Below are positions 1,310-35,032 of a DNA stretch of 46,463 nucleotides, piece by piece (the stretch's first letter is position 1; each line of letters starts with the position of its first letter). The position numbers and the translations under genes are program-made. Under the pieces are notes generated by a model that searched no databases, was not told where the DNA came from, and saw nothing but the letters and a program-made list of their open reading frames with translations. The stretch is from a virus. The stretch is taken from IMG/VR virus record IMGVR_UViG_3300010885_067607, positions 1 to 46,463 of that record. The stretch is one strand, 5' to 3'.

Positions 1310-1334
1310 TTATTTTAGTATCAAAACTTGGCTT

Positions 1335-1344
1335 TTAATATATA
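1335..1344 (+). promoter_or_regulatory. Candidate late promoter box TTAATATATA
   Basis: Exact TTAATATATA followed by CC, 22 bases before ATG 1367. Its position argues against the upstream TTG at 1328 as the start of the giant gene. Confidence 0.5.
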
Positions 1345-1366
1345 CCTAAAATACGTAAGCCATTTA

Positions 1367-4300: not shown

Positions 4301-7300
4301 TACAGATTTGGGTATAATAAGTCTGAAAAAGATATGTATGTAACTGCGGACAACTATTTAGTAAGATTTAATGGTTCTGATAGAACTTTGCAGTATGAAT
4401 ACCAAATAGATGGATTAAAGCCTGATATTTTCTATCAACCACAAAATTCTTCATTTTATGTATTTAACACAGATACCATCTTAAATGTAAATGGTGGTGA
4501 TATAATAGAATATAATCTTGGTTTGAAAATATCAGATTGGTTGAAACAACCAACGGGTACTACAAGTAATTTGAGTGATATTTATTTCTTTGATAAAGAT
4601 ACGGCAGTCGCAGTTGGTGCTAATGGGACTATTTTGAAAACTACAAATGCTGGGGAGAATTGGAATAAAGTCACTACAGCAGTAACGACCAATATAAATA
4701 CCTTATCAATTATAAAATCTGGATCATTTGAGGGTACACTTGTAGCAGCTGGTGACAGTGGTAGAATCTTAACTTCTACGGATTATGGTGATACTTGGTC
4801 GGTTACAACACAGGGTATAAATAAGTTTATTGACATTAAGTTTTATAGCCCTACCAAGGGGTTTTTATTAGTGGAGACAACTGGTGGTAATAATTTAATA
4901 CAACTTAATTACAATGGTACTCCAGTTCAAGGTTTTTCTATTGGAATTGCTAATACAAAGATGAACTCGATTTGGGGTAATGACCTAGGTTCTTTTATTG
5001 TAGTAGTTGGTACACAAGACCAAATACTAGTCTCAACTTCTCATTTCGCTCAAAATAGTACTTCACAAATCAGAAGAACTAGATTGAATTCGGTCTCAAC
5101 TGTACCATCTTCCAATTTTATAGTAACAGTCGGTGATAGTGGTGTTATATTAAGAACAACTGATAAAACTGATTGGCACACAAGGTATGCTGGTACCACA
5201 AGAAATTATAAATCAGTTACATTCCCAACATCTACTGTTGGGTGGTTAGTGGGTGCTAGTGGTTCAATCGCTCGTACTGGAGATTCTGGTTTGAATTGGA
5301 CCGGACAAAATTCGGGTATATCGACAACTTTTGATTTGAATTCAGTTCATGCATCAGATTCTTCGACCGTTTTAGCTGCAGGTGATGGTGGGTCGATAGT
5401 TTGGAATGAAAGCGGGACTTGGAATCAACACCTAACATTGACCGGTACCCGTTGGACTCAAAATAAATTAAATGGTGCATTTCTAATAAATAAGGAAACA
5501 AAGATAGTAGTTGGTGATTCTGGTACAATACTCAGGGTTGATCCATTGAATTATAGAAAAATAAACACATTTTCTTACGCGGTCGTTGGGACATATAGTT
5601 CCGATGGTATCTACAACAATACGGCATTTACGAGTCAGACTGATAGTGGTGCAAATGCAACATTTGATATTATAATTTCAAATTCTATTGTCACATCTGT
5701 GCAAATTAATAACAGAGGTAAGGATTGGTTTAATAGTAATAAATTGTTTATAAATAACGCGGGATTGGGTGGTTATTCTAATGGTTACATTGAAATAACT
5801 GTAAATAGTACAATAAGTACGTTTGATAACATTCCTTCGGGTACGAATAATAATTTGAATGCTGTATTTTTCGTAGGTGGATTTGGTGTAATAGTTGGAA
5901 ATAATGGAACTTGTCTACAAAGTAGTAACGGTGGTGTTAATTGGGTGTTGAAAACTCTTGGTGGAGTTGGTACAACTAATTTATTTTCGGTAGCTGGATC
6001 AGCTAACACATTCTGGGTTTGTGGTGCTGGTGGTAAAATTTGGAAAAGTTCTGACGGTGGTAATAGTTGGGGTGGCCCAACAACTATTGGGATAATAGAC
6101 CTAACCTCAATATCATTTAAGGACATATCAAATGGAACAGTGGTGGATGCTTATGGTAGAATCTATACTACTACTGATGGTGGATCTTCTTGGCAGAGAA
6201 ATTATTTTGATTACAATTCTGTTCATTTCTTTAATGATTCGGTTGGTCTGGTTGCTGGTAGAAATGGTATAGTTTTAAAAACTACCGATGGTGGTAATTT
6301 ATGGGATTATGTTCACATAGGTACCACTGCTAGTTTGAGTGCTGCATATTTAGCGGCTGAAAATATTGCATATGTTGCTGGAACAGATGGTTTAATAAGA
6401 AAAAGTAGCACAGGTGTAAGATCTAGTATTTGGATAAATCAAGATAGTGGTTCTTCTAATTTAAAGAATTTTGCTTTTACAGATGCACTGACTGGTTATG
6501 TAGTGGGTGATGGTGGTATAATTTTCAAAACAGAAAAAGATCCACCGTTGGTCAGAAATTTAGCTTTTGATAACATTAATAGTATAATGCACTTGTCAAC
6601 TCCTGAGGGTATAACGACTTTTGATTTAGAGGGCAATTTGATCAATAAAGGACTTACTCCGGATTTTGGTCCAATAGTAATGAATCAATTTGATGGTGAT
6701 ATTTACTTAGCTTCACAAGTGAATCAGCAACTTTACGTATATGATAGCAAAAGATACTACTTCAAATATAGTAAATATTTTTCAGACGGTAGAGTGAAAA
6801 AAGTGATCTATAATCCAGATCGACAAGGTGTTATGGGTATAATACCAAATAACATAGTACAGTTACAATCTATTTTTGAAATAACCGTATCAATAGGTGC
6901 TGAGATTTCAAATAAACCATTCACTTATTCATATGTTGGTGAAAATAATTACGGTACATTGGACCCAAATTATATACCTCGCCCTAGCTTATGGTTAAAG
7001 ACTAGAGAGTATATTAGAAGGCCACGAGCTAATTATAACGATGAGCCGAATGTTCAGTTAATTTGGAGTTGGGAAGAAGATCAGACACCAGAAATTTTCT
7101 TATATGATTTTAGTGGTGATCAATTAGTAACTGGTACTAGACTATCTTATACTGGTCCAAAACCTCTTCCATTGGTTGCTCTCAATAGAAAAGTAAATAA
7201 AAACCTTGATAGGACTGAGTTATCTGAGTTTCAACAAACAATTTTTGATGAAATTAAACAGACTCTGGTTCATGTGGATTATTCTGAAGACCTTTCTCTT

Positions 7301-9220
7301 AAACCTACTCCTATAGAAATTTTCATGGGTGTAAATTCACAAAATGAGGGTGTGTTGACATCTGTTTTAAACCTTTACAAAAGAGAGGACATTTCTTTCA
7401 CGGTTATACCAAATTCAACAAACAGTGATGTGATACATTTCAGTATAGGTGTCAATGATGAGATTGGACTTTACGGTATGATAGTATTTGATAATAATTC
7501 AACCATGAATTTTAGACAAACACCAGAGGGAGTTTCTCGTGGATTGAAACCAAATCAACTGTTAAGAATTACTGTCATTGATAATGTTAATAATAAAAAC
7601 AAATATATTTCTTTAAATAATGGTATAACTGTTAAGATAAGATCGGTGTTTACCAAATATCTTATAGTTGATTTCATTGAAGAAATTTTAACGGATGAAT
7701 TTACTCAAATAGATAATTATCCAAAAAGTGGTAATATAACATATCTGACTGTTACATTTCAAGTTGTGGATAAACTAATCGGTAGGTTTAATATTCACTC
7801 ACAGACAGAAATTGAAGATATAAGGTATAAAATTGAATTATCAAATACTGGTCATCTTGTAGATCCCTATGATAGTTTTATCTTCAAAGAGTACGATATA
7901 AATGAACAGGGAGTCGACTGGACATTTCTTAATAGAAAGAGAAAAGAGATGTTGATGGTAAGAGACCAAATATTCCCTTATATTGGTTCTTATAAATCTC
8001 TAATTAATGCTATAAATTTCTTTGGATACAATGATTTAGAATTGTACGAGTATTATAGAAACATTGATATTAACTCAAAAGATTTTTATAAGTTATTCAA
8101 GATAGAAATTCCAGACATCTTTGATACTTCGGTAGCTGGGTGGACTGAAAATGATTTTATAAAACATACACTCCCTAATCCAAAATTTGAAGATACTAAC
8201 CTCTTCAATTTGACTTTCAAAATTACGGATAAGGAAGGTACGAATGTATTACAATATTCATTAGCGGAAGTCTTGATGAAACTTCAGGGATTGAAAATCT
8301 GGCTTGAAAAGAAGGTTATACCAATTACTCATAGAATATTGGATATAACTGGTAGGGCTGATTTTGTTGGGGTAAATTCAATTCAACACGAATGTTATGA
8401 TGTAAAGATCATAAATAGTAGACAAGAATTGACTCCAATTGATTTTGCACTGACGGAGGCCTATTTAATGCCGATAAATAGTGGGTCCACCGTTTATACT
8501 TGTCATGTTGAGTTCTTCATGGGATATGTACCGACTTATTCAGTTGCTCCTGATTATTTTAATGTTAAAATAAGAACTTATAAAACTTATAAGGAGTGGA
8601 ATCCGTTCACAACTTATCAAATTGGGGATAGAGTAATTTATTACGATGTTATTTATGAATCTGTTATGTCGAACAATAAATTGAGGAATCCGAGAAAATA
8701 TAGAGGGATTCCAACTTGGGCTGGATTCAATGACTACACATTGGGTGACTATTCAAACTATAATAGAGAAATTTATCAGTACATAGGCACTCAATCATCG
8801 TTTGTAATATTTGGTTCTGCATCGACGGTTAATCCATATCAAGACATATCTAATAATGGTGCTTACGCTTCATGGTTCAACATGACTGAGTGGAAAAATG
8901 TTGATTTAGTACCAGTTCAAACTCTACAAGAATATAGAATTACAGCCACATTCAGTCTTGAGGTGATGAGGGAAAACCCACCACCACCAGGAGAACAACC
9001 TCCACCAATTAAAGCTGGCAAACCATTCAATTTCACGGTAGATTCGAATATAGACCCTTTTATTGTTATCGAAGTTACATCTGATAATGGGTATGGTCAA
9101 ATTTATACCACTAAGAAGAATTACGAAATCCGTGGATTGAACGATATTTCGGATCCTATTCGAGGTATAGAACAGATTGGTCCCTTCCAACCACTTACTA
9201 AAGTTGGAAATTCCCTATAA
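1367..9220 (+). CDS. Giant baseplate/tail protein with YCF48-type beta-propellers
   Basis: A 2617-residue protein from ATG 1367; a TTG at 1328 would add 13 residues but overlaps a promoter-like box. Residues ~844-1054 look like NHL-type propeller blades (YVVDPLYPKLDYTIPL, MGINPDNGDVYVSYG). Residues ~1058-1395 and ~1490-1724 are YCF48/BNR-type blades with recurring VGANGTILKTTNAGENW and VAGRNGIVLKTTDGGNLW motifs, split by a small domain. Residues ~1728-1834 return to NHL-like blades. Residues ~2144-2384 include RKEMLMVRDQIFPYIGSYKS and INAINFFGY, resembling the P2 gpI / T4 gp7 baseplate wedge region. Two segments (~338-376 and ~2410-2435) look like carbohydrate-binding module 5/12 (YQIGDRVIYYDVIYES). 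A baseplate wedge/periphery location is inferred, with the propellers perhaps contacting host glycans. It ends at a bidirectional terminator. Confidence 0.65.
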   Translation: MQSLIFFNKEGDNLNFRYNEDDELWQGDIIFHQNSDDTFKTAGLYVFEKIPSFEYERPGDLQLEKFQLFNEYGFDIYGSAFFTQSIYGIELPNTDPNFYSKWIYGTRLNRYFPVGSQIRFNKPILEFQNPNVTYTVVKTKKNGIMILSDVDNRSFNEQYGNFISDNNNFYSSFTVSGTDGSIVPTGGFTYSIGGVNSIGIYDYIKPDLTENVSSWSEPNFYDRLFNGRVLNLIGTEKNDGIYTVKNIELNDKVYSRYIYDARLLKESYDVLIDITIKTELPTVYSGPVTVTGSRVEFGSRVPTILKPGVEFYLPDSNINSNRIVISDIPQYSKINQQQFFATGSQVLYNNLIYECIQSHTWSYTLENGPSNAEFWKRSFYVPVVGTLSSENFFYTEIHLVKNRFTYSQSFTQSMDVTFGSSVQKYAEDLKFYNIDYYYDGGILHADLMYPSDYADVRFFLGSSSFFEVTNKKFIKEKNIETEEILKPEIVDNFSKNYDYTIVFTDVDEFGIRFTINDQIYYEDVEFLYDGLDLNLERTIDKTLRNWFTSWYIPLARLGVIPKLKFSGKSFSPYFNAISLTTEYPNVPLKFKVEVGTTANFYIPRKQVILNKLGSNLDVIINGRTYGILCVSNNGVVDIISTLENWIDTYSEDGILYTNPIDPDLGGGQIYVEQILTMLFFKVKEMDVRIEISVNPGISVLPGSKDFLINDLFEGNVGALLTSNSVVLKYATYSFEEELFSTGQVLSVNNSVRVWNNQEYNIEYLGPRMMNLSYQGPFWPTLDPICDISPYVTIALSADAYGATGCSVSVPFSPSGEFNLDFRSDFSVYFGASNSYVIKNDFNTNDKKRFVDIIYLGLAKRIYVMGERLTIIDSITGFIMGEVELPNIVTGISLNFNEYNNYLYCLSDSYIYVVDPLYPKLDYTIPLTLNRTAFNMGINPDNGDVYVSYGDNQIDIWYQDNFLSTPSKQYPDVPDSKNYYRFGYNKSEKDMYVTADNYLVRFNGSDRTLQYEYQIDGLKPDIFYQPQNSSFYVFNTDTILNVNGGDIIEYNLGLKISDWLKQPTGTTSNLSDIYFFDKDTAVAVGANGTILKTTNAGENWNKVTTAVTTNINTLSIIKSGSFEGTLVAAGDSGRILTSTDYGDTWSVTTQGINKFIDIKFYSPTKGFLLVETTGGNNLIQLNYNGTPVQGFSIGIANTKMNSIWGNDLGSFIVVVGTQDQILVSTSHFAQNSTSQIRRTRLNSVSTVPSSNFIVTVGDSGVILRTTDKTDWHTRYAGTTRNYKSVTFPTSTVGWLVGASGSIARTGDSGLNWTGQNSGISTTFDLNSVHASDSSTVLAAGDGGSIVWNESGTWNQHLTLTGTRWTQNKLNGAFLINKETKIVVGDSGTILRVDPLNYRKINTFSYAVVGTYSSDGIYNNTAFTSQTDSGANATFDIIISNSIVTSVQINNRGKDWFNSNKLFINNAGLGGYSNGYIEITVNSTISTFDNIPSGTNNNLNAVFFVGGFGVIVGNNGTCLQSSNGGVNWVLKTLGGVGTTNLFSVAGSANTFWVCGAGGKIWKSSDGGNSWGGPTTIGIIDLTSISFKDISNGTVVDAYGRIYTTTDGGSSWQRNYFDYNSVHFFNDSVGLVAGRNGIVLKTTDGGNLWDYVHIGTTASLSAAYLAAENIAYVAGTDGLIRKSSTGVRSSIWINQDSGSSNLKNFAFTDALTGYVVGDGGIIFKTEKDPPLVRNLAFDNINSIMHLSTPEGITTFDLEGNLINKGLTPDFGPIVMNQFDGDIYLASQVNQQLYVYDSKRYYFKYSKYFSDGRVKKVIYNPDRQGVMGIIPNNIVQLQSIFEITVSIGAEISNKPFTYSYVGENNYGTLDPNYIPRPSLWLKTREYIRRPRANYNDEPNVQLIWSWEEDQTPEIFLYDFSGDQLVTGTRLSYTGPKPLPLVALNRKVNKNLDRTELSEFQQTIFDEIKQTLVHVDYSEDLSLKPTPIEIFMGVNSQNEGVLTSVLNLYKREDISFTVIPNSTNSDVIHFSIGVNDEIGLYGMIVFDNNSTMNFRQTPEGVSRGLKPNQLLRITVIDNVNNKNKYISLNNGITVKIRSVFTKYLIVDFIEEILTDEFTQIDNYPKSGNITYLTVTFQVVDKLIGRFNIHSQTEIEDIRYKIELSNTGHLVDPYDSFIFKEYDINEQGVDWTFLNRKRKEMLMVRDQIFPYIGSYKSLINAINFFGYNDLELYEYYRNIDINSKDFYKLFKIEIPDIFDTSVAGWTENDFIKHTLPNPKFEDTNLFNLTFKITDKEGTNVLQYSLAEVLMKLQGLKIWLEKKVIPITHRILDITGRADFVGVNSIQHECYDVKIINSRQELTPIDFALTEAYLMPINSGSTVYTCHVEFFMGYVPTYSVAPDYFNVKIRTYKTYKEWNPFTTYQIGDRVIYYDVIYESVMSNNKLRNPRKYRGIPTWAGFNDYTLGDYSNYNREIYQYIGTQSSFVIFGSASTVNPYQDISNNGAYASWFNMTEWKNVDLVPVQTLQEYRITATFSLEVMRENPPPPGEQPPPIKAGKPFNFTVDSNIDPFIVIEVTSDNGYGQIYTTKKNYEIRGLNDISDPIRGIEQIGPFQPLTKVGNSL

Positions 9221-10830: not shown

Positions 10831-13800
10831 TTATCCACCTAGTGGATTTCTTGTAGATTTCATTTTGGAAGCTATGTAAGTTTTTAAACTTACACCCTCG
10901 CCTGAGATGACAGAATTAATACCGGCAACTGCTGAGCTTAGAGATGACATGCTCTTAGCTAATTCCATCATCATCTTATCAGATTCGGATTCTTTAGGTG
11001 GTGCCGATTTCTTAACCTCTGGCGTCTTAACCTTTGCTCCCCCACCAGCACCACCAGATGTAACTCCTTTAGTAGCTCCACCACCTGGCTTGGTAGCACC
11101 TCCACCAGCAACTGGTTTAGTCTCAGCTTCTTTAGGAGCTGATGTTTTGGTATCGTCCATAACCTCTAAGAGAATCTTGGCTTTGTCCTCCAAAGCATCC
11201 ATCATACTTCCAAACTGGTCAGAATCCATCAGAGAGAGCATTACCACCGACCCAGCTAGATTCTTTAATAAGGTCATTTTTTCAACATCAACACCTCCTA
11301 ATTGGCCGTTCAGTTTCATTACTGCTTCTCCCAATTTATCATAAGCTTTGGCTAATTCAACCATTGAATCTGCCATATCAGCAACATTGTCATAATCTGC
11401 GTCTGCTTCTTCAACACTCTTTAAAATGTTAAGGTATGATGTTATATTCTGTGAAAGGTTCTTAAAGTAATTCGGATTGATCATAGTATTGAACCTGCCT
11501 TGAGCAAGTTTTCTTGACACCTGTACTAAACCTTCTGCTATGGCAAGTAATCCAGATTTAAATTTATCTTCACCGCTGGAGAATATTCCGTTGTTTTGTG
11601 AAATATAATTAAGACCTGGCATTATAGCATTCATTGCCATGCTAAATCCTTGTGACCACTGTGCTGATGGAACTCTTCTTACATCAAATGGGACTTTATT
11701 ATCATTAAATATTTTTGCTAATTCTATAATACCTTCTGCGAGGGTATTGACTTTTTCTTTTACAGAATCTTCAAAGAATGAGAATAAACCACCAGATTTG
11801 AACCCACTAAGCATCTGAGAGAAACTTACTAGGTTCAATCTCATTGATTTCATCCAATTTTCAGGAATCATTACAGAATAATTGCCTTTGGATATAATTT
11901 GGGAAATATCAACTATGCCTTGAGTATATTGCTTTGATAGATCCATCTCATCAGTGGATGCTTCTGAATTTTTAACATCAACCATCAGACTCAAGAAATT
12001 TGTCATATTACTATGGAGTTGCTCCATATAACCTTTTGGAATCTCTTTATAATTACCAGAGGCTAGAATATGACTGATGCTAACAACCGTTTTAGTAGTT
12101 TCTTGTAATTTAAAGAAGTCACCGTCTGAGTCCATATCAATTTCTGATTCATTGAGACTTTTCAAAATGATGACAAAATAATCAAATGAAATTTTGATAC
12201 CTCTACCCCATTTAGGATCGATCATCGTTGTGAAATTACCACCGCTCAATGTATTACCCGTATCGGCAATAGCTTGAGCGATTGCCTTCATACTTGTTAC
12301 TGTTGTCTCCGCTCCATCCGAGAACCAACCACTTTGTTCGTTGATATATTTAAGAGCCGGTATAAATGCTTGGAATGTATCACTAACTGCCTGTCCCCAT
12401 TCTTTCTTAGGTACTTTATTTAAATCATATGAAACGTCGGATCCACTTATTGCTTTAGCTGCTTCGGCAAGTCCCATTCCGACAGACTTGATTGCATTTT
12501 GATAATCTTCTGGTTTTAGAGATCCTTTGAACCAAGATGAGTTTGCTCCCAATGCTTGGAAAACACCTGTGAATGCTTGTAGTGCTGTCGAAACGCCCTC
12601 TGCCCAAGTTTTAGTAGGTCCCATTTTATAGGATGTGGTGCCGGTAGCGAGAATAGCAGCGGCTACAACTATACCACTTGAAATTGATACTATGGCATTT
12701 TTGAAATCATCTACACTAACACCGCTTTTCCAAATTCCCGCATTATCAACAAGTATCTTATAAATTGGTGCGAAACCACCCAGAGCCAATGATACACCCT
12801 CTGACCACTCTTTAGTAGGTCCCATTTTATATGCAACTGACCCCATAGAAAATACCATAGCAGCTGTTGTAATTCCTTGGGCGATTGTAACAATAGCAGT
12901 TGAGAATTGTTCTGGACTAACTCCACTTGCAAAGAAAGATGGGCCAGCATTATCAAGTAGCATTTTGTAAACAGAACTAAATGCTCCAATTGCAATTGCT
13001 ACACCCTGTGCCCATTCAAATTTCGGACCACCTGTGAAATTACCCCTACTTAATTGGTCTCCTGCACTATTGATTGACTGTGAAATCATTACAATAGATT
13101 CTCCGAATTCTTTAGGACCAATTCCCCCACCTCCGAATACTTCAAAGATGGCATTTGCCATTAACATCTTATAAACCTCACTGAAGGCTCCCAATGCTAT
13201 AGCTACACCAGAAGCCCATTGTAAAGTTGGACCAGCTGTATAATTCCCTTTTGATAAGATATTAGAAGCTTTAACAACAGTTTCGGCAACACCCAATACC
13301 GCGTCACCGCCGGCTGCTAAAGCTACCGCTCCGAGACCCAGTGTGCCAGCGATTATTGCTCCTAGTGCACCCATACCTGTGGCAAATTCTGCTAAGGTTA
13401 ATCCAACACCTTTTGCCCAATCAACGGATGGGTATTTATCATATTTACCACCGGATAGAATCTCGGCGGTTTTTACCACCACATATGAGATTCCAACGAT
13501 TGCTAATCCACCTAAGGCCAATAGTGGTAAGAAAGGTCCCAAGAAAGCTGCTGCTAATGCAAATGGTGCCATTATGGCAATTGTTGATGTTGTCCAGTTA
13601 ATAGGTACTGGTTTTGTGTAATCACCTTTTGATAGAATATAATCTGTGGCTAAAACAGTCGCGGCTACTGCAATAATTGCAGTAGCACCAAGAATAATTA
13701 GAGGCAATAACGGTCCTAAGAAAACTGCCGCTAAACCAAATGGTGCCATAATTGCTACCGTAGAAAGAGTCCAATTGATAGGTACTGGTTTTGTGAAATC

Positions 13801-16800
13801 ACCCTTAGAGAGTATAAAATCAACCGCTAATATGGTTCCTGCAATTGCAATTATAGATACGAGTCCAGCCAATAGGGCAACCGCACCAGCACCACTAGCG
13901 GCAATAGTTCCCAACAATACTGCTGCAATACCAAATGGTATCATAGCAGCTGCTGTTCCTAGTGTCCATTCAAAGGATGGGTACTTTGTGTAGTTACCAA
14001 CTGATAATATCAGTGATGTGGCCATTATCGTGGCTGCTATAAGTAAAATAGCAATTGAACCCTTTAATGCGGTTGCTGGAGTCAATCCAACTTTGTCGAG
14101 GATGTAAATGGCGAATCCAAAAGCAACCATCGATATAGCTGAGTACATCACCCACTCTATACTAGGATATTTGTTGTAAATACCAACTGAAAGTATCAGA
14201 GAGGTTGCCATAAGGGTAGCAGCTATGATTAAAATAGAAACAGCTCCTTTTTGAACCTTAGATTGGGTGAGTTTTAATTTATCAAGAGCGAAGAAAGCAA
14301 GTCCAAATGTGGCTAGTGAAATAGCTGTATGGAAGGTCCAAGTTAAACTTGGGTATTTGTTATAAATTCCAACAGAAAGAATAAACGAAGTTGCTACAAG
14401 AGTCGCGGCTATGATCAATATAGATTTAGCGCCCTTTTCGATTTTGGATTGTGTCAGTTTTAACTTATCTAAGGCTAATATCGCACCTCCAAATGCGACC
14501 ATAGATAGGGAAGTGTACATTAACCACGTAAATGATGGGAACTTGGTATATTGACCAACTGATAAAATCAGAGATGTTGCAACTATAGTTGCCGCTAAAA
14601 TAATAATTGATTTAGCACCCTTTTCAATTTTGGATTGAGTTAACTTCAACTTATCTAATGATACTATGGCACCTCCAAAAGCCACCATAGATAGCGATAC
14701 AAAGAATAACCATTCAAAAGTTGGGTATTTTTTGTATTGTCCGATACCTAAGATAAGTGATGAAGCCGCAATTACACCTGCTATTATAAGGAGATTCTTA
14801 CCCCCCTCCATTATGGTTTTTTCTTTATATCTAGCTAATTGAGGTAACACCTTACCCATGCCCAAACCTATAACACCTATAACAATTGATATACCAAGAA
14901 CTGACAATAATTTACCCATTGAAACTGGTTTAACTAATTGGAAGATATAGGAAGTTAACATTATAGTCACGGCCATTGCTACCATTACAACGGGTATTTT
15001 AGCCATTTGAGCCACATTAAGATTCTTGACCGCTTTGGCTATTGGTCCAACTGCATATGAGATTGGTATTAAGGCTACTCCTATGAATATTGCGGTTAAT
15101 AATTGGAACAATCCAACCGGTTTAATCATTGCAAAAAGGTGGGAAGATACCATTATTGCAGCAGAGATTGCCACCATTAAGATTGGTAACATAGCGGCAA
15201 TTAACATAGCTTGAGCAGGATTTTTAACAGATCCTATTCCTTTAATTATTTGCCCGAGTCCGTAACTGACAGCCGCAAAAACTGCTCCTATGAAAATTGC
15301 AGTTATTGCTTGGAACAACCCGATTGGTTTAACCTTTGCCAATAAGAAGGACGAGCCAAGGATTGCTAAAGATATTGATACTAATATTATGGGTAATAGT
15401 GGTATAAATATCATTGACTTTACACCCATTTTACCCAATCCAACTAATAAATTACCCAAACCATAAGATATAACAGCAAAAACACCTGCAATTAATATCG
15501 CAGTTATTGCTTGGAACAATCCAATTGGTTTTACACCTCTTAATATGTGTGAGGATAATGTTATAGCTAACGATATACCAACCATTATAAATGGTAGTAG
15601 TGGTAACATCAAAATACCTTTTGGTGAAATATTGGATATTCCTGTCAATAACTTGCCCAAACCATAAGATATCACGGTGAACATTCCGGCAATAAATATA
15701 GCGGTCAATAACTGGAAGATACCTATTGGTTTTACGCCTCTAAGTATAAGTGATGAGAGCATAACTGCTAGGGATATACCAACTAATACGGCAGTTAATC
15801 CTAAAACTTTTTTAGGTGTTAGCTCTTTTTGTTCGGCGAGTTTTGCAAAAGCTACTGCCAATAATGAAATAGCAATTGAAAGTCCAACTACTGATGCAAA
15901 ATTAATACCACCGACAAGCTTAAAGGCTAGTCCTATGGCTACAACTGCACCAGCTATCAATAGAATCATAGATATTCCACTCTTGATAGATTCTTTCATT
16001 TTTGGATCACCAGCCTTTCCGAAAACTCCACCATCATTTGTTTGAGTGACTTTACCCTTTGGTTTGCCGTATTCTGTTGGGATAATCACTTTACCTGGTT
16101 TTGGTAATTGTAACTTATTTAGTTTTCCATACTGTACCGGTATTATGAGGGTGTTTGGTTTAGCAATCTTCGGTAATTTTGGAAGTTTGCTATATTTTAA
16201 TTCAATTTCCTGAGATTTAATTTTTGGTAAATCGGTCAGTTTTGGAATTTTTGACCATTTTAAAGGAACCTCTTGTGTTGGTATCTTAGGGAATTTTTGA
16301 ATCTTATCAAGTTTGCCCCATTTTACAGGTATCTCTTGTGCCTCAAATTTGGATAATTTGGGTAATGTTGGAACCTCCCCATATTTCAATCCAATAACTT
16401 GATCTTCAAACTTAGCTAACTCTGGTAGGGTTGGAACTTCACCATATTTAATCGGAACGACTTGTTCAGTTTGTGCTAACTCTGGTAGGGTTGGAACCTC
16501 CCCATATTTTAATCCGATAACCTGATCTTCGAACTTAGCTAACTCTGGTAAAGTTGGAACTTCACCATATTTAATCGGAACGACTTGTTCAGTCTGTGCT
16601 AACTCTGGTAATGTCGGAACTTCACCATATTTTAATCCGATAACTTGGTCTTCAAACTTAGCTAACTCTGGTAATGTTGGAATATTACCATATTTCAATT
16701 CAATCTGTTGTGCTTCAAACTTAGCTAATTTTGGTAATGTTGGAACCACCCCATAATTCAAACTAATAGTTTGTGCCGGAATCTGATTGAACGTTGGTAA

Positions 16801-19062
16801 ATTCGGTAGACCACTGTATATCAACGGAATTACTTGACTATCAATTTGTTCTAATTCTAATGATGGTTGTTCTCCGTATTTTAGTGGAATTATTTGTTCA
16901 TCAAATTCGGATAATTTAGGTGAAGTAGGTACCTCTCCATATCTAAGAGAGATCAATTGTTCCATCTCTGCTAATTTAGGAAGAGTTGGTATAGGTCCAT
17001 AATTCAAAGAAATTATTTGAGTCGGTATTTGTTCCAAAGTTGGAATCTTTGGAACCTCCCCATATATTAGTGGTATAATTTGATTTTGAATTTCGGTTAA
17101 TTCCAATGGTGGCTCTTGTCCATACTTCAAAGGAATCATCTGTTCGTCAATCTTAGCCAGTTCTGGTAAAGTTGGAACATTACCATAATTTAAAGATATT
17201 ATTTGTGGTGAGATTGTATCTAAGGTTGGAATCTTTGGTACATCACCATATAATATTTGAATAACTTGTGGTGGTATTTCCTTTAATGGTGGATAGTTTG
17301 GAACTTCTCCAAATGATAATGGGATTAATTGTGGTTCCATCTTACCCAATTCTGGTAAACTTGGTATTTCACCATATTTTACTAGAATAGTTTGATCTTC
17401 GAATTGAGTTAATTTAGGTAAACTTGGTATTTCACCATATTTCAGTGAAATGACTTGTTCTTCAAATTGCGCTAATTTTGGTAATTCTGGTAGAATTCCA
17501 TATCTAAGATCTATTGTTTGTTTTATTTCACCAGATATTGGAACCTTTGGAATATTACCATATTTTATTTCTATTATTTGTGGTTCAAATCCGACTAATT
17601 TTGGTAAAGTTGGGGTTTCTCCATATTCAATTGGTATAACCTGCTTCTCAAAATTAGCTAATTTTGGTAAATTTGGAGTTGGTCCGTAATTTATAGGAAT
17701 AATTTGTGCCGGAATTTCATCAATAGTTGGCAACTTTGGTACTTGTCCATATAATAGTTCTACTACTTGTTTTGGTATTACTGGTAAAGATGGTGCACCT
17801 GGTAACTCACCATAAGATATTGGGATCAATTGTTCTTCAATCTTACCCAACTCTGGTAGAGTTGGTACATCTCCATAGGAAATTGGTATTACTTGAGTTT
17901 CAAATTTCGCTAATTCTGGTAATTGATTAGGAATTATGTAATCAATTGATACAAGTTGTGTAGGTATTTTGGCTAATTCTGGTAATTGTGGAATAGGTCC
18001 ATATGATATTCCTACAATTTGAGTTTCAAATTTCGCTAATTCCGGTAGAGTTGGTATTTCACCGTACTTTACTGAAATTATTTGATCATCTATTTTAGCA
18101 AGTTTTGGTAATATCGGATTTCCATAATTCAATTGAATTATTTGTGGGGGTATTTGATTTAAAGTGGGTAATACTGGAGTATCACCATACATTATATCGA
18201 CTACTTGAGGAGGTATTACCTTCGGTATAGGTAATTCTGGCACATCCCCATAACTTATAGGAACAATCACTTCTTGTACACTTCCCAATTTGGGTAAAGT
18301 TGGTACATCCCCATATTTTATTGGTATAATCTGTTCATCGAAACTGTCCAGTGTTGGTAAAATAGGAGATTTACCATAATCGAATGGGATTAATTGAGTG
18401 TCAAATGGTTTTAATTCAGGTAAGTTTGGTAATTTACCATATTCGACTTGAATTACAAGATTTTGTAGGGTTGGTAATTTGGGTATTTCAGAAAACTCAA
18501 AACCAATTGTTATGAGAGGTTGAGGAAGTTTTGGTAAGGTTGGTAATTTAGAAAATTTTAAATCAATCGCTGGAAACTTTATTGTTGGTAAAGTTGGAAG
18601 TGTGGGTTTATTGAAAGATATTGTGATTGGTTTTGGAATTGGTAACTTTAATGGTTCCAATTTACCATATCTCAAAGGTACTTCAATAGGTTTGATTTTG
18701 GGTATTTTGATTGTAGTTTCTTTTATTACAACCTCTGGCTTCATCTCACTCAAGCTTTTTTGGAGTGATAGAATCTTGTTATTGTTCTTTATTAATTCAT
18801 TAACTGAACTACCCAATTGATTCATTTGTTTTGATAGTGTATCAAAACCTAGATCCTTCTTAGTTTTCTTACTTTCCTTTCTAGACTCTTCTATGTTGTC
18901 TTTGAGAGACTTGTTGAGAGCTTCGAATTGTTTTGATAAATCGGCACTAGATAATGCCTTAGCTGTATCAGATTTTTTATCACCCTTTTTGGATAAGATA
19001 TCTGATATTGTATCTAAAGCAAATGATAGATTATTTAGAGCTTCTAGTAACTTCTTATCCAT
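10831..19062 (-). CDS. Putative tail tape measure protein with three-tier repeat architecture
   Basis: A 2743-residue protein from ATG 19062, among the largest in the window and next to sheath and baseplate genes, where a T4-type tape measure would be expected. Residues 1-~120 are helical and charged. Residues ~123-1006 contain 43 units of 19-21 residues, roughly [VI]-I-x-[LI]-x-Y-G-x-x-P-x-L-P-x-L-x-x-[FI]-x-x-Q. Residues ~1025-1920 are strongly hydrophobic, with dozens of apparent membrane-type helices in repeated pairs. A motif of the type G-N-Y-T-K-x-P-x-x-x-W recurs about 18 times from there to residue ~2530. The C-terminus is Gly/Ala/Lys-rich and ends with a helical segment. Hydrophobic stretches are usual in tape measures and may aid membrane passage of DNA; the Pro-rich tandem array is not usual. 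The function is inferred from size, context and hydrophobicity. Confidence 0.65.
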   Translation of the reverse strand: MDKKLLEALNNLSFALDTISDILSKKGDKKSDTAKALSSADLSKQFEALNKSLKDNIEESRKESKKTKKDLGFDTLSKQMNQLGSSVNELIKNNNKILSLQKSLSEMKPEVVIKETTIKIPKIKPIEVPLRYGKLEPLKLPIPKPITISFNKPTLPTLPTIKFPAIDLKFSKLPTLPKLPQPLITIGFEFSEIPKLPTLQNLVIQVEYGKLPNLPELKPFDTQLIPFDYGKSPILPTLDSFDEQIIPIKYGDVPTLPKLGSVQEVIVPISYGDVPELPIPKVIPPQVVDIMYGDTPVLPTLNQIPPQIIQLNYGNPILPKLAKIDDQIISVKYGEIPTLPELAKFETQIVGISYGPIPQLPELAKIPTQLVSIDYIIPNQLPELAKFETQVIPISYGDVPTLPELGKIEEQLIPISYGELPGAPSLPVIPKQVVELLYGQVPKLPTIDEIPAQIIPINYGPTPNLPKLANFEKQVIPIEYGETPTLPKLVGFEPQIIEIKYGNIPKVPISGEIKQTIDLRYGILPELPKLAQFEEQVISLKYGEIPSLPKLTQFEDQTILVKYGEIPSLPELGKMEPQLIPLSFGEVPNYPPLKEIPPQVIQILYGDVPKIPTLDTISPQIISLNYGNVPTLPELAKIDEQMIPLKYGQEPPLELTEIQNQIIPLIYGEVPKIPTLEQIPTQIISLNYGPIPTLPKLAEMEQLISLRYGEVPTSPKLSEFDEQIIPLKYGEQPSLELEQIDSQVIPLIYSGLPNLPTFNQIPAQTISLNYGVVPTLPKLAKFEAQQIELKYGNIPTLPELAKFEDQVIGLKYGEVPTLPELAQTEQVVPIKYGEVPTLPELAKFEDQVIGLKYGEVPTLPELAQTEQVVPIKYGEVPTLPELAKFEDQVIGLKYGEVPTLPKLSKFEAQEIPVKWGKLDKIQKFPKIPTQEVPLKWSKIPKLTDLPKIKSQEIELKYSKLPKLPKIAKPNTLIIPVQYGKLNKLQLPKPGKVIIPTEYGKPKGKVTQTNDGGVFGKAGDPKMKESIKSGISMILLIAGAVVAIGLAFKLVGGINFASVVGLSIAISLLAVAFAKLAEQKELTPKKVLGLTAVLVGISLAVMLSSLILRGVKPIGIFQLLTAIFIAGMFTVISYGLGKLLTGISNISPKGILMLPLLPFIMVGISLAITLSSHILRGVKPIGLFQAITAILIAGVFAVISYGLGNLLVGLGKMGVKSMIFIPLLPIILVSISLAILGSSFLLAKVKPIGLFQAITAIFIGAVFAAVSYGLGQIIKGIGSVKNPAQAMLIAAMLPILMVAISAAIMVSSHLFAMIKPVGLFQLLTAIFIGVALIPISYAVGPIAKAVKNLNVAQMAKIPVVMVAMAVTIMLTSYIFQLVKPVSMGKLLSVLGISIVIGVIGLGMGKVLPQLARYKEKTIMEGGKNLLIIAGVIAASSLILGIGQYKKYPTFEWLFFVSLSMVAFGGAIVSLDKLKLTQSKIEKGAKSIIILAATIVATSLILSVGQYTKFPSFTWLMYTSLSMVAFGGAILALDKLKLTQSKIEKGAKSILIIAATLVATSFILSVGIYNKYPSLTWTFHTAISLATFGLAFFALDKLKLTQSKVQKGAVSILIIAATLMATSLILSVGIYNKYPSIEWVMYSAISMVAFGFAIYILDKVGLTPATALKGSIAILLIAATIMATSLILSVGNYTKYPSFEWTLGTAAAMIPFGIAAVLLGTIAASGAGAVALLAGLVSIIAIAGTILAVDFILSKGDFTKPVPINWTLSTVAIMAPFGLAAVFLGPLLPLIILGATAIIAVAATVLATDYILSKGDYTKPVPINWTTSTIAIMAPFALAAAFLGPFLPLLALGGLAIVGISYVVVKTAEILSGGKYDKYPSVDWAKGVGLTLAEFATGMGALGAIIAGTLGLGAVALAAGGDAVLGVAETVVKASNILSKGNYTAGPTLQWASGVAIALGAFSEVYKMLMANAIFEVFGGGGIGPKEFGESIVMISQSINSAGDQLSRGNFTGGPKFEWAQGVAIAIGAFSSVYKMLLDNAGPSFFASGVSPEQFSTAIVTIAQGITTAAMVFSMGSVAYKMGPTKEWSEGVSLALGGFAPIYKILVDNAGIWKSGVSVDDFKNAIVSISSGIVVAAAILATGTTSYKMGPTKTWAEGVSTALQAFTGVFQALGANSSWFKGSLKPEDYQNAIKSVGMGLAEAAKAISGSDVSYDLNKVPKKEWGQAVSDTFQAFIPALKYINEQSGWFSDGAETTVTSMKAIAQAIADTGNTLSGGNFTTMIDPKWGRGIKISFDYFVIILKSLNESEIDMDSDGDFFKLQETTKTVVSISHILASGNYKEIPKGYMEQLHSNMTNFLSLMVDVKNSEASTDEMDLSKQYTQGIVDISQIISKGNYSVMIPENWMKSMRLNLVSFSQMLSGFKSGGLFSFFEDSVKEKVNTLAEGIIELAKIFNDNKVPFDVRRVPSAQWSQGFSMAMNAIMPGLNYISQNNGIFSSGEDKFKSGLLAIAEGLVQVSRKLAQGRFNTMINPNYFKNLSQNITSYLNILKSVEEADADYDNVADMADSMVELAKAYDKLGEAVMKLNGQLGGVDVEKMTLLKNLAGSVVMLSLMDSDQFGSMMDALEDKAKILLEVMDDTKTSAPKEAETKPVAGGGATKPGGGATKGVTSGGAGGGAKVKTPEVKKSAPPKESESDKMMMELAKSMSSLSSAVAGINSVISGEGVSLKTYIASKMKSTRNPLGG
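11470..14760 (-). repeat. About 18 degenerate G-N-Y-T-K-x-P-x-x-x-W units in the tape measure
   Basis: Examples in protein order: GQYKKYPTFEW, GQYTKFPSFTW, GIYNKYPSIEW, GDYTKPVPINW, GKYDKYPSVDW, GNYTAGPTLQW, GNFTGGPKFEW, GNYSVMIPENW. Each is normally preceded by [IL]-[LA]-S and spaced ~55-90 residues apart. The unit runs from the hydrophobic section into the soluble C-terminal third, so these sections probably share ancestry. Confidence 0.75.
16045..18695 (-). repeat. 43-unit Tyr-Gly/Pro-Leu-Pro protein repeat array
   Basis: Forty-three consecutive 19-21 residue units were counted by eye, covering residues ~123-1006. Typical units read YGEVPTLPELAKFEDQ and YGDVPKIPTLDTISPQ. Most start with a hydrophobic beta-like tetrad before Y-G. 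The outer units are the most divergent. Confidence 0.9.
16377..16690 (-). repeat. Recent 123-bp tandem duplication within the array
   Basis: Two-unit blocks (41 residues, 123 bp) repeat nearly identically at offsets 16398, 16521 and 16644, differing at only a few third-position bases. This marks the youngest expansion in the array. Confidence 0.85.
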
Positions 19063-19126: not shown

Positions 19127-19582
19127 ATGGCTTCTCAGAGTACAACAATATATAAAGATAGGTCTTCTGTGAAAGAAGAACATCTAAATGAGATCCTTGA
19201 AAAGATCAATAATGGTAAGTCATTAACATTATCCGAGGGAATATTTCTAAATAACTTCGAAATTTCTTCTGAAAACGACTTTAGAGAATTTTCACACCTA
19301 TCCAAAAATCAAGTTTTCGAAAAGTTATGTAATCTATTGGAAAGGGGAAAAATAGTAATTTGTAATTTATTTGATAAAGATGGTCGGATCAACGATAAAA
19401 TAATTAGTTTAGAAAATTTATTCGAAGAAGAATGTTGTGTTTTGGTACTGAAGCACGGAGATCGCTCAAAAATATACGATAAATTTTTGTATAAAATAAC
19501 CTATAATTTAAAAAAAGATGAATATTATCTTGAATCACAAGATGAATATTTCGAAAAAATAAACATGGAAAATGAGAATTAA
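19127..19582 (+). CDS. Unknown 151-residue protein with EILEKIN helix motif
   Basis: Starts at ATG 19127, directly after a TTAATATATA box. Residues ~20-45 (HLNEILEKINNGKSLTLSEG) resemble the DEILDKIN-x-x-G-x-x-SLT-x-x-E motif that ends two other small proteins here (25097-25516 and 28236-28601), but here it is near the N-terminus. The rest is charged and mixed alpha/beta, with a Cys pair (EEECCVLVLKHGDRS). No enzyme motif is visible. Its stop lies inside the next gene (11-base overlap), suggesting coupled translation. Confidence 0.6.
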   Translation: MASQSTTIYKDRSSVKEEHLNEILEKINNGKSLTLSEGIFLNNFEISSENDFREFSHLSKNQVFEKLCNLLERGKIVICNLFDKDGRINDKIISLENLFEEECCVLVLKHGDRSKIYDKFLYKITYNLKKDEYYLESQDEYFEKINMENEN

Positions 19583-19891: not shown

Positions 19892-22800
19892 TTAAGCAAA
19901 TCCACCAGCTTCGATAGCTCCAGTTCTAAGGATTGTGATGTTGTTAACGATGATACCCATACCTTTGATTGGTTCAACATATGTATCGATTACACCGATT
20001 TGTCTGTCGATAAGGTCAGGTGTGTTGTTTTCTTCATCACACTTATTGAAGTAGTTATAGAGACCATTTCTAGCTACATAACTCTCACAAATTACATCAG
20101 CTTTCAACTTAATTTCAGCTCTCACATCTGGAGTGTTGAATTTCCACTGGAAGTCAAGAAGCATGTTACCAAGTTCTCTTTCAAGTTCAATTAACACCTC
20201 TCTAACGTGGATGTAAGAAAGAGCTGATTTGTAAATTGTTTGTGCTGTATTTTCAGTTTCGATTACGAATCCTCTATTTCTCTTGAACACGATTGGGTTC
20301 ATTTGAGCTAAGTTAAGGTTTTCTAAGTCGGTGAAACTGTAGTTTTGTTCGATACCTTGGATTCCAAGAATCTTACCGTTAGTTACGCCAGCTGCGATTG
20401 TCCAAGGAAGTACAGAAGTAACAAGTCCTAAGAACTTTCTCATATAAGTTGTAGCTGCGAACATAGCTGGTGGTAATTCAGTTGGTCTACCATTATCATT
20501 GATGATGAGGTATGGTAAGAAATAACCAGCTGATGTTGTACCCTTACCAGTTCCGAAAGAGTAGAGGAATTTAGGGTTCTTTTCAGCGTCGCCACCAGCA
20601 GCAATTAGTTCTGTTGATAGGTTACCATTTGCATCTGTGAAACTAGGGTTGGCTGAATTTCTGAATTGTCTCATTGAAGGCATGTTTAAGAATGCGAAAC
20701 AATCAAGTCTGTCTCCAACGATGTCTACTAATTGTTGCTTAGAGTATTCAGTTAATCCCAATCCAAAGGAGTCAACAACATATCTGTAATCGATAGAATC
20801 TTTGTTTACAAGGGCTTTGAATAATTGAGTACCTTTAGCTACAATGTTGAGGATTGAGTTCTGTGTATCTTCTGTTCCATCAGGTTGAGAAGCAGCTCTT
20901 GGTCTGAATCCTTTTAGTGGTATAGCTTTATAAGTATCAACATAAGTGTCGATTGAAGTATACTTCAATGTTTGCATTCCGTCTCCAATTGTATACTTTT
21001 TGATAGCCGAGTCGCAAGTTACTTCGGAATAGGTTGGATCAACAGACCAAGCTTTCTTGTTAAGAATCCTAGTAAGTCTTCTTCCAATCATCCCAGGTAG
21101 TAAAACATCTGGATCCTCATTAACCTCAGCTTGTAAGAAATCACCGGTTTTTAAGGTTGGGTATCTGCTGCCAAGGATGAGAACTTTGTTATCAATTGGT
21201 GTGTATCCAGCTGGTTCAACAATTTCAATTGTTTCTTTCAAATCTGTTAAGTCGGATATGAAGTTAAGGTCACCATTTGGAGTAACTGAGAAGGTTGATG
21301 AAAGAGTACTATCTTTGAATTTAACAGATAGGTTGTCACTTGTATCAATGTAACCTTCAGCGTAATACCTAGTACCAGGATTCCAGATTCTTGTTACTGT
21401 TCCAAGGTCTTCTAATGTTACGGTTTTATCTAGTACATATGGATAAGTTCCAGATGTGCTGAATGAGAAACCAGTTACTGGATTTATGATATCATTTGCA
21501 GTAGCTCCTGCAACTAGAGTGTACTTTTTGGTGTTTAAAGTAGATGAAGGAATAATAAATGATTCAGTACCTGAAACGATCCAAGTTTGTGAAGCTGTGA
21601 ATACAACTACATTGTTACCAGCTGTGTCAGTTGTGAATAAAACCCTACTAGAATTTACTGAATAGTCAGCGTAGAAATAGTCACCAGTGTTGTAGATACC
21701 ATTATAGAAATCTAAGTAAACATCTGAATACTTAGCAGCGACACCTATTTGTGGAGTAGCAACAGTATCTTTAGTCACATATCCTGTAGATCCATAAATG
21801 AATTCATTATCTAACTTGTAGAATACAAGGTTACCTGCTGCGATTGATGCCGGTGTGGTTGTTCCTGTGCCCAAATCAAGTGTGAATGATTTAACTTGAG
21901 ATGTTGATGTTACGATATTGGATACCGAAGCATTGACAAGAGATACTTTTTGACCTGTGCTAACATCAGCTAACATACACATTTTAGATAGATTACTAGA
22001 ATCAAGCATTGAAATTAAGAAATTGAACAATTTAATTTTTCTATAACTTGCGTATGCACTTGGGTCTGGTGTTACAGCTGTTCCAGGGAAAGTTACAGTG
22101 ATTACACCAGGGCTCACATTAGTTACAGTGAAATCAGTTGTTGGTTGGAAATCTATGAATCCAGTAGCGTAGGATGTACTAGCAGTTACGGAAACAGGTG
22201 TATATGTGTGATTTTTGAGGTCGCCACTGAACGCACTAACATCATAGCTTACGAAACCTAAAACGGTATCAGTGGTAGCAACTGATGGTGGTGTTGATGC
22301 TAAAGTTCCTTGAGATTTTTCAACATTTCCAGAAGTATTTACATAAAACGAACTGATAAAACTTTGTGTTGCTGAAGAAGTTGCGTAATCAGAAGAGGCT
22401 ATAGAGAAAGTATAAGTTGCCTTATCCACTCCACCACCAATTAAAATTTGTTGACCACCTGATACAATATATGGTTGTCCACCAAGTGAAGATGTTCCAA
22501 CTTGGAAAGTAACAATCATATTTGTAGATGATGTGAAACCACTAACAGCTGGACCAGAAAGTGCATCGGTGCCAAAAATTACACCATTAACGATACCTTC
22601 GGACATATAAGCAGTTCTTGCGGTAGCTCCGTGCCACTCAGCACCTCTAGCATTTCCGAAAGCTGTTCCAAAAGCTACTACACTCTGTCCTGCTGAACCT
22701 TCTGCGGTATCTAAATAAACACTCGGATAAGCATTTTGTTCAGTGATTGTTTCTTTATAAGAAAGGAAATCAATCTCATCCAACTCAGAATCAACAAGAG

Positions 22801-23764
22801 CATTGTTTACTGCTAAGTTGTTTCCGATGATATCAACCATACCATTTGGAAAATCTCCTTCTAACTTATCAGCGTTGAATGCACAGAAAACACCAGTTCT
22901 GTCAGTATCAGCATTGATTGTTGATTCGATGAAGATATTTCTTCCATTTTCATCCTTGAAATAAGGAATCAATGAACAACCTTCGTAGAATCCAAGAGTG
23001 TTAACGTTTCTATCTTGAGCAAAAGCTGATACAGCACTCTTCTTAAGACCAGTTGAATTAAAATATGCTGACCACTGTAAATCTACAGAAAGTTCAGCAT
23101 AATTTGACCAGTCACCACCGACGATTAAAACGTCAACTAAGTAATCAGAGGCAAAATCCAATTGATTAGTATAAGGTGGAACCTTATCAGCAGTACCGTA
23201 GTACTGAAGAAGTGGTTGGTTGTAACCAGTTAGTTTAGACTTGAAAATGAACACACTAACAAATCTGTTGGATAGGTTAGTAATGTGGAAAAGTCTTTCA
23301 GATCCTGATGTTTCAGTTGTGATGGTGTCGATGAAAGTTGTTGTATCTTTCTTCCAGAAACTTGAAGTATCATGTACCTTCCTATAAGGTATTTCAATTA
23401 TAGAACTGTTAACCTTACTGGTGGCTGTGGATAGCGACCTATATTCGATTTTATCTAATGTATCATTAGTAGCTAAGAGGTTCATAGCTAAAACTGGTCC
23501 AGATTCTAACATCTTCGCTACCGTTCTGTGGAAGAAAGAACCCTTTCTTTCCAAGTTTCTGTCTAAAGGACCATAGATCTTTTCTAGATCAGAAACATTA
23601 GAAATCAGTATTGGTGTATTTACAGGACCCTTTTTAGAAAAACCAACAACCAGCGTAGGTGGTATTGTGAGGGTAGGTACTACCGGATTTGGTATAATTG
23701 ACTGGTCGAACTCTTCGAAGAAGATACCGGGTCTCTTATATTTCCCAATTTGAATTGCTGCCAT
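19892..23764 (-). CDS. Contractile tail sheath protein (gp18-like), enlarged
   Basis: A 1290-residue protein from ATG 23764. The N-terminus has the sheath signature (KYKRPGIFFEEFDQS, then VVGFSKKGPVNTPILI and LEKIYGPLD). The C-terminal ~270 residues match the conserved sheath domain: GKILGIQGIEQNYSFTDLEN, NRGFVIETENTAQTIYKSAL, and a final beta strand IIVNNITILRTGAIEAGGF. T4 gp18 is about 660 residues; the extra length lies in the middle (~300-950), which is Ser/Thr/Gly-rich and beta-like and probably forms surface-exposed insertion domains. The third-position composition looks less AT-rich than in neighbours, as expected of a highly expressed structural gene. It contracts to drive the tube through the envelope. 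Confidence 0.93.
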   Translation of the reverse strand: MAAIQIGKYKRPGIFFEEFDQSIIPNPVVPTLTIPPTLVVGFSKKGPVNTPILISNVSDLEKIYGPLDRNLERKGSFFHRTVAKMLESGPVLAMNLLATNDTLDKIEYRSLSTATSKVNSSIIEIPYRKVHDTSSFWKKDTTTFIDTITTETSGSERLFHITNLSNRFVSVFIFKSKLTGYNQPLLQYYGTADKVPPYTNQLDFASDYLVDVLIVGGDWSNYAELSVDLQWSAYFNSTGLKKSAVSAFAQDRNVNTLGFYEGCSLIPYFKDENGRNIFIESTINADTDRTGVFCAFNADKLEGDFPNGMVDIIGNNLAVNNALVDSELDEIDFLSYKETITEQNAYPSVYLDTAEGSAGQSVVAFGTAFGNARGAEWHGATARTAYMSEGIVNGVIFGTDALSGPAVSGFTSSTNMIVTFQVGTSSLGGQPYIVSGGQQILIGGGVDKATYTFSIASSDYATSSATQSFISSFYVNTSGNVEKSQGTLASTPPSVATTDTVLGFVSYDVSAFSGDLKNHTYTPVSVTASTSYATGFIDFQPTTDFTVTNVSPGVITVTFPGTAVTPDPSAYASYRKIKLFNFLISMLDSSNLSKMCMLADVSTGQKVSLVNASVSNIVTSTSQVKSFTLDLGTGTTTPASIAAGNLVFYKLDNEFIYGSTGYVTKDTVATPQIGVAAKYSDVYLDFYNGIYNTGDYFYADYSVNSSRVLFTTDTAGNNVVVFTASQTWIVSGTESFIIPSSTLNTKKYTLVAGATANDIINPVTGFSFSTSGTYPYVLDKTVTLEDLGTVTRIWNPGTRYYAEGYIDTSDNLSVKFKDSTLSSTFSVTPNGDLNFISDLTDLKETIEIVEPAGYTPIDNKVLILGSRYPTLKTGDFLQAEVNEDPDVLLPGMIGRRLTRILNKKAWSVDPTYSEVTCDSAIKKYTIGDGMQTLKYTSIDTYVDTYKAIPLKGFRPRAASQPDGTEDTQNSILNIVAKGTQLFKALVNKDSIDYRYVVDSFGLGLTEYSKQQLVDIVGDRLDCFAFLNMPSMRQFRNSANPSFTDANGNLSTELIAAGGDAEKNPKFLYSFGTGKGTTSAGYFLPYLIINDNGRPTELPPAMFAATTYMRKFLGLVTSVLPWTIAAGVTNGKILGIQGIEQNYSFTDLENLNLAQMNPIVFKRNRGFVIETENTAQTIYKSALSYIHVREVLIELERELGNMLLDFQWKFNTPDVRAEIKLKADVICESYVARNGLYNYFNKCDEENNTPDLIDRQIGVIDTYVEPIKGMGIIVNNITILRTGAIEAGGFA

Positions 23765-34468: not shown

Positions 34469-35032
34469 ATGAACCATATCAGAAAATTTCAGTCCTTTAG
34501 AAAGGGTAAAAAAAGAGAAGAAATCATCCAAGAAGCGGTGTTTCAAGTAAATGATATCTATAAAGTAAAAACCACTATTGATATCCCTCAATCTTTGATT
34601 AATGCTTATGTTAAGAAAGTAAAGGATAATACTGGTAAAAATCTGAGACAATTTTTCGGTGATATGGACATTGCTGAAGAAATTGTAAAATTTGTAGCTC
34701 AATCTGGATTAGATGCTGACACACTATCTGCAACAGCTTTAGTTGGTGGTGCACAGGGACAAGCACAGGGTCAAGGACAGGCTCAGCCACAAGCTCAGAC
34801 TGAACCACAGGCACAATCTCAACCACAAACGCAAGGTCAAGTTCAAGTTCAAACCCAAGGCGAAGAACAAGCTCAACCACAAGCTCAACCACAAGCTCAA
34901 GGTCAAGGTCAAGTTCAAACCCAAGGTGAAGGACAAGCTCAACCACAAGCTCAGGGTGAATTTGAGGAGGTTCAGGGTCAAGGACAGGCACAAGAAGAAG
35001 AGGAAGAGGGGGAAGAAGAGTTACCAGCTTAA
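34469..35032 (+). CDS. Gln/Ala-rich low-complexity protein with capsid-targeting-like N-terminus
   Basis: ATG 34469 is chosen over the TTG two codons upstream, giving 187 residues. MNHIRKFQSFRKGKKREE resembles the tag of other putative packaged proteins, and I-I-Q-E|A at ~20-24 fits a gp21-type cut. Residues ~20-92 form a compact domain that could bind DNA or protein. From ~93 on, the protein is GQAQ/PQAQ/VQTQ repeats, then an acidic tail (QEEEEEGEEELPA). Such acidic, disordered tails are seen in scaffold or internal proteins. The repeat DNA is imperfect, which suggests that the composition is maintained. Function unknown. Confidence 0.5.
   Translation: MNHIRKFQSFRKGKKREEIIQEAVFQVNDIYKVKTTIDIPQSLINAYVKKVKDNTGKNLRQFFGDMDIAEEIVKFVAQSGLDADTLSATALVGGAQGQAQGQGQAQPQAQTEPQAQSQPQTQGQVQVQTQGEEQAQPQAQPQAQGQGQVQTQGEGQAQPQAQGEFEEVQGQGQAQEEEEEGEEELPA
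34749..34993 (+). repeat. Imperfect Gln-Ala codon repeats (GQAQ/PQAQ)
   Basis: A low-complexity stretch of CAAGCTCAACCA-like hexamers and dodecamers encodes the Gln/Ala-rich tail. Period lengths vary, unlike the strict 24-bp repeat of the portal gene. Confidence 0.8.

Follow-up and report, generated by a model that had tools for sequence, protein, structure and literature searches.

The locus and its genes

The window, by which we mean the whole 46,463-nucleotide stretch of viral DNA analysed here, has as its longest open reading frame a gene of the minus strand (10831-19062) that starts with ATG, contains no internal stop and encodes a protein of 2743 aa. This protein, most probably a tape measure, carries a long proline-rich tandem array between an N-terminal segment and a hydrophobic C-terminal part. 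Its features and the neighbouring sheath gene are listed below, with the basis of each assignment in brackets; L005, L088 and L090 are relatives of the protein in other viral contigs.

19892..23764, minus strand: contractile tail sheath protein, 1290 aa, upstream of the putative tape measure gene (phrog_34521, E=2.3e-89)
10831..19062, minus strand: putative tape measure protein, 2743 aa (open reading frame; nearness to the sheath gene; fold match of a relative)
18709..19062, minus strand: N-terminal segment, residues 1-118 (MDKKLLEALNNLS...), predicted helical in the family (identity to relatives; model helices)
16054..18708, minus strand: proline-rich tandem array, residues 119-1003, 43 units of 20-21 aa (profile units; consensus)
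18442..18708, minus strand: N-edge units, residues 119-207, of the F-S/N-K-x-P-x-L-P type that fills the L088 and L005 arrays (sequence comparison)
16321..18441, minus strand: interior YG-type units, residues 208-914, like L090 units (profile; unit table)
16321..16692, minus strand: youngest part of the array, a two-unit block in three near-copies, residues 791-914 (TRF; unit scores)
16054..16320, minus strand: C-edge units, residues 915-1003, resembling the L090 C edge (sequence comparison)
12640..15969, minus strand: 26 strongly hydrophobic segments, residues 1032-2141, candidate membrane-spanning modules (hydropathy scan)
11623..14724, minus strand: 15 modules of ~60-70 aa marked by P-x-x-x-W, from residue 1447 (pattern count)

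In the 1290-aa sheath protein, sheath models match chiefly within the C-terminal third (residues 881-1283), which suggests large added domains. Between the sheath gene and the putative tape measure gene lies a 151-aa gene on the opposite strand (19127-19582, plus strand); the relatives L005 and L007 have similar-sized opposite-strand genes directly before their putative tape measure genes. Elsewhere in the window, the plus strand encodes a 2630-aa protein (1328-9220) to which the YCF48-type repeat model PSII_BNR matches at five places (E 4.9e-23); it may be a fibre or a protein that binds the receptor. Two further repeats lie on the same strand: a 24-bp tandem repeat of 6.8 copies (44696-44858, 92% matches) close to the 3' end of the portal gene, and a Gln/Ala-rich repeat (CAAGCACAAGCT, 66-bp units) at 34760-34953 in overlapping open reading frames.

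A tandem array of 43 proline-rich units

A profile made from 37 of the window's units finds exactly 43 tandem units in the 2743-aa protein, spanning residues 119-996. This is the number given in a preliminary description of the sequence, which placed the array at 16045-18695 and was right to within one base, the frame being 16045-18696. The profile-detected units are 20-21 residues long, and mixed lengths of 18, 20 and 21 aa occur. Twenty-eight consecutive YG-to-YG steps measure 20 or 21 residues, whereas 1000 shuffled sequences gave 0.007 such steps on average and never more than 1. At both edges of the array the units vary or are without YG, and five units at the N edge score weakly (0.9-14.9 bits).

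The consensus of the window units is YGEVPTLPELAKFETQIIPLK. Tyr-Gly and P-x-L-P, which had been called invariant, proved nearly but not strictly so among 30 full-length 21-mers: Y1 is found in 27/30, G2 in 26/30, P5 in 28/30, L7 in 24/30 and P8 in 28/30. Other positions are kept as well, namely L10 (25/30), F/I13 (27/30), Q16 (28/30), I/V18 (30/30) and L/I20, with Q16 and I/V18 as well conserved as the two named motifs. The longest exact DNA repeat within the array is 41 bp, so that short-read assembly should give the right unit count. Since arrays of the same kind are also present in three other contigs, an artefact of assembly is unlikely.

Synonymous differences between units are near saturation (pS 0.62-0.76), which indicates that most units were not copied recently, apart from the two-unit block at 16321-16692 (TRF period 123 bp, 90% matches). 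The pN/pS values between units are 0.59 in the window, 0.31 in L090, 0.26 in L088 and 0.17 in L005; as unit pairs are not independent, these values are indications and carry no p-value. They point to units that are for the most part old and kept by selection. A neutral or selfish array produced by replication slippage would suit the local near-duplications in that block and the turnover of units between relatives described below. It is nevertheless very improbable, because the amino-acid sequence has been retained (pN/pS 0.17-0.59) even as synonymous sites have approached saturation.

Array-bearing and array-less relatives

Single-protein searches of viral contigs gave no relatives, which were found by family alignments. 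The family scan returned 79 viral loci, and a tree was built from 61 distinct proteins drawn from these and from loci found earlier. In 55 of the 61 members, the N-terminal segment of ~110 aa runs directly into the first hydrophobic module. The P-x-L-P array is present in four, always at the junction between N-terminal segment and hydrophobic module, and looks like an optional insert at one fixed site. Unit counts are 43 in the window, 32 in L090 (in a 464,605-bp contig; one of the 33 profile matches reported, that at residue 1444, is spurious), ~20 in L088 and ~14 in L005, whose protein is cut by the contig end.

The four array-bearing members form one clade (support 93/96), which makes a single origin of the array the simplest reading. 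Turnover of units between them is visible in their sequences. Interior units of the window match those of the more distant L090 at 18/21 consensus letters, while the arrays of L088 and L005, which are nearer relatives, are made up of units of the window's N-edge kind. The C-edge units are alike in the window and L090 and have the motif W-G/S-K-I-P-K-L ... VIIPTEY in common. Another pair of members, L091 and L092, carries unrelated repeats at the same junction, which seems prone to insertion: the insert of L092 (6806-9748) is Pro/Thr/Ser-rich (TTSIVKPVTPVGSSPIIPS) and that of L091 (9116-10003) is charged (ELTTTKIAKERQED).

Array-less homologues of 995-1691 aa are encoded by the huge phages LR745206, LR756502 and LR756501 (635-735 kb). 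Like the window protein they have a long hydrophobic helical C-terminal part; unlike it, they are without the array and fall well short of 2743 aa. The homologues of LR745206 and LR756502 have the N-terminus (MDKKLLEALNNLS) in common with the window protein, the N-terminal segment being kept at 46% and 40% identity, respectively, over ~55-60 residues, and the sheaths of these two phages, of 635 and 642 kb, are ~50% identical to that of the window. The phage is likely a Mahaphage-like, huge, contractile-tailed myovirus. Mahaphage genomes measure 634, 636, 642 and 735 kb, and genomes of more than 634 kb are predicted to infect Bacteroidetes (PMC7162821).

Identity of the array-bearing protein

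In searches of Pfam, PHROGs and NCBIfam, no model above cut-off names the family tape measure. The identity of the protein is therefore inferred from the adjoining sheath gene, the very large size, the tandem hydrophobic segments, and the helical prediction and structure match of a relative. The putative tape measure gene lies within 2-19 kb of the sheath gene in 12 of the 13 other contigs that hold both, a count biased towards closeness by the many short contigs, although those of 120-175 kb agree. The distance is 110 kb in the remaining contig and ~46 kb in LR745206. Among sequence models, TMP_3 matches weakly in 2/30 relatives (best E 0.0044) and does not match the window protein, while phrog_33360 (tape measure) matches L005 weakly (E 0.0073).

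An AlphaFold2 model of the array-less relative L007 consists of helices only, with no strands, at low confidence (pLDDT 47). Of the model's four Foldseek matches at E<=0.001, the three ranked 2, 3 and 4 (E 3e-5 to 9e-4) carry tape-measure annotations, a fold match that is only suggestive given the pLDDT of the query. The protein could instead be another virion or membrane protein, for example a channel protein that is ejected, in which case the tape measure proper would be encoded elsewhere. Such a role would suit the 14-26 hydrophobic segments, many for a tape measure, the distance from the sheath gene in some genomes (the 110-kb contig and LR745206), and weak PHROG matches to 'DNA ejection protein' in 5/30 relatives and to 'virion structural protein' in 6/30. 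We consider it distinctly improbable, because the gene lies by the sheath gene in most contigs, the protein is large, the relative's fold matches tape measures, and no other tape-measure candidate was found among the window open reading frames scanned. On this indirect evidence, the preliminary description was very probably right to call the protein a tape measure.

Conformation of the array

Only 3% of 15-mers in the array are free of proline, compared with 90% on its N side and 57% on its C side. Proline in nearly all 15-mers excludes a regular helix on general grounds, and the array is almost certainly non-helical, whereas a helical structure is predicted for the remainder of the family's protein. 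The contrast with a helical rod that was drawn from the sequence at the outset thus holds. Hydrophobic residues in the window, L090 and L088 units occupy positions 1, 4, 7, 10 and 13, then 17/18 and 19/20. The same 3-3-3-3 and then 2-residue spacing is kept in L088 units that the window profile misses, and L005 units keep most of the pattern but leave the 3-residue spacing at one point. On general principles of protein structure, a three-residue spacing suits a polyproline-II helix, which completes a turn every three residues, and a two-residue spacing suits a beta-strand. The spacing suggests that polyproline-II-like and beta-strand segments alternate within each unit and that the array is likely extended. 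For the window array as a whole, Fourier analysis of hydrophobicity told nothing of use, since the 20-aa units break the phase.

Eight units modelled with AlphaFold2 from an in-phase 8-row alignment gave a pLDDT of 40, a pTM of 0.11 and no secondary structure. No helical fold is predicted, in keeping with the preliminary description, which had offered either an extended or a beta-solenoid fibre; of these the extended chain fits better and the solenoid is unsupported, no strands being predicted. A compact beta-solenoid or rod in the tube, with one unit per coil (~0.5 nm per unit), would provide bulk or stiffness and not length. The regular 20-21-aa unit, its short strand-like stretches and weak, non-significant phmmer matches to leucine-rich repeat proteins with P-x-L-P in the PDB (E 0.004 and above) speak for it. 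It is decidedly unlikely, as no fold was obtained for eight units, units of 18, 20 and 21 aa are mixed, and the hydrophobic spacing differs from the LxxLxL of leucine-rich repeats. A leucine-rich repeat as such was rejected on the hydrophobic positions (1, 4, 7, 10, 13, 17, 18 and 20, not LxxLxLxxN) and on the lack of a predicted fold.

The same low confidence and lack of secondary structure would be expected if the array did not set tail length and were a disordered linker, or a series of sites at which tail chaperones, tube subunits or ejected cargo bind. The unrelated low-complexity inserts of L091 and L092 at the junction, as at a tolerant site, and the differing net charge of the arrays also fit such a linker. 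Purifying selection, near-invariant Y, G, P, Q and I and the kept hydrophobic spacing exceed what a plain linker needs, and we judge this explanation unlikely. If instead the extended array is ordered, the lack of a predicted fold for a lone chain implies that order would need partners, either other tape copies or the tube.

Comparison with known tape measures

The array is real and, within reach of our searches, undescribed. It had not been recognised from other tape measures when first noticed, and no such repeat is present in Pfam, PHROGs, the PDB, phage records or the literature searched. The literature search for proline-rich or polyproline tape-measure repeats, with subscription journals mostly outside its coverage, returned no such report. 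No relatives of the array were found in genome contigs, where one DNA-pattern match, in Nocardia, was obtained. Matches in Streptococcus, Listeria, Gordonia and Rhodococcus phages (E 0.004 to 7, 24-36% identity) were judged compositional, and hits of Pfam DUF2292, Transglut_C and Phage_fiber_2 on the relatives' arrays were rejected as sums of tiny matches, none passing alone.

Tandem repeats within a tape measure are known from the lactococcal phages TP901-1 and p2, in which repeats of 11 or 18 aa marked by Trp/Phe lie in a largely helical protein; deletions shorten the tails, and gain or loss of units has been proposed to tune tail length (PMC5099701). The window units differ from these in being 20-21 aa long and proline-dense, with P-x-L-P and Tyr-Gly, and cannot be helical. 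Phage G, like the phage of the window a huge-genome myovirus, likewise has a very large tape measure encoded near the sheath gene: the accessible part of its description gives gp183 2893 aa for a 450 nm tail (~1.56 A per residue), with 50% helix, 44% coil and C-terminal cell-wall hydrolase domains, and there describes no proline-rich tandem array (PMC8570332). In the Staphylococcus phage 80alpha, a siphophage, the tape measure is a trimer with N-termini at the neck and C-termini at the tip (PMC11661146); its resolved part is helical and no array such as that of the window is described. How the tape measure is arranged once the tail has been assembled has yet to be settled (PMC9022992).

Proposed model and tail length

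We propose that the array forms an extended, non-helical spacer between an N-terminal coiled coil, which by analogy with 80alpha would be the head-proximal end, and a membrane-active helical part at the tip end. Each unit would comprise ~12 residues of polyproline-II-like chain, hydrophobic at 1, 4, 7, 10 and 13, followed by a short beta-strand (18, 20, 1) ended by Gly. The hydrophobic stripe may let tape copies, probably three, pack along the lumen against one another or against the tube wall. Rules for tape length assume a helix. Per residue, an extended chain would reach about twice as far, making units a cheap means of stepwise lengthening, and a gain or loss in their number would set a new tail length. 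An effect of the array on tail length is plausible, and the model as a whole, a tape measure with an extended, adjustable spacer able to reset tail length, is in our view about as probable as not.

At 1.5 A per helical residue, 3.2 A per extended residue and 4.8 A per solenoid unit, the window tape would span an estimated ~411 nm as all helix, 562 nm with the array extended and 299 nm with the array as a solenoid. The array is not the sole length variable, since in array-bearing proteins the helical parts, too, are longer (1577-2236 aa, compared with a median of 1052). When proteins with other inserts are included the range is 1577-2541 aa against the same median (Mann-Whitney p 0.0002, which overstates the evidence, as the insert-bearing proteins come from two clades). 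The P-x-x-x-W modules are a second tandem system in the putative tape measure, and their number, ~5 to 25 among relatives, implies that the helical part also grows by modules.

A bolder reading, which we hold as possible but doubtful, is that one chain contains two rulers: a helix, at ~1.5 A per residue, and the polyproline/strand array, extended at ~3.2 A per residue. Since unit number varies from ~14 to 43 among relatives, the fixed step per unit suggested in the preliminary description is testable, with predicted steps of ~3.2 nm per unit for a helix, 6.7 nm for an extended chain and 0.5 nm for a solenoid. Relatives with 0, 14, 20, 32 and 43 non-helical units at one fixed site offer a natural experiment. 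If the two-ruler reading is true, each whole unit gained or lost would correspond to some 6.5-7 nm of tail, and the array would be a new ordered, non-helical, multi-chain rod in the phage tail tube.
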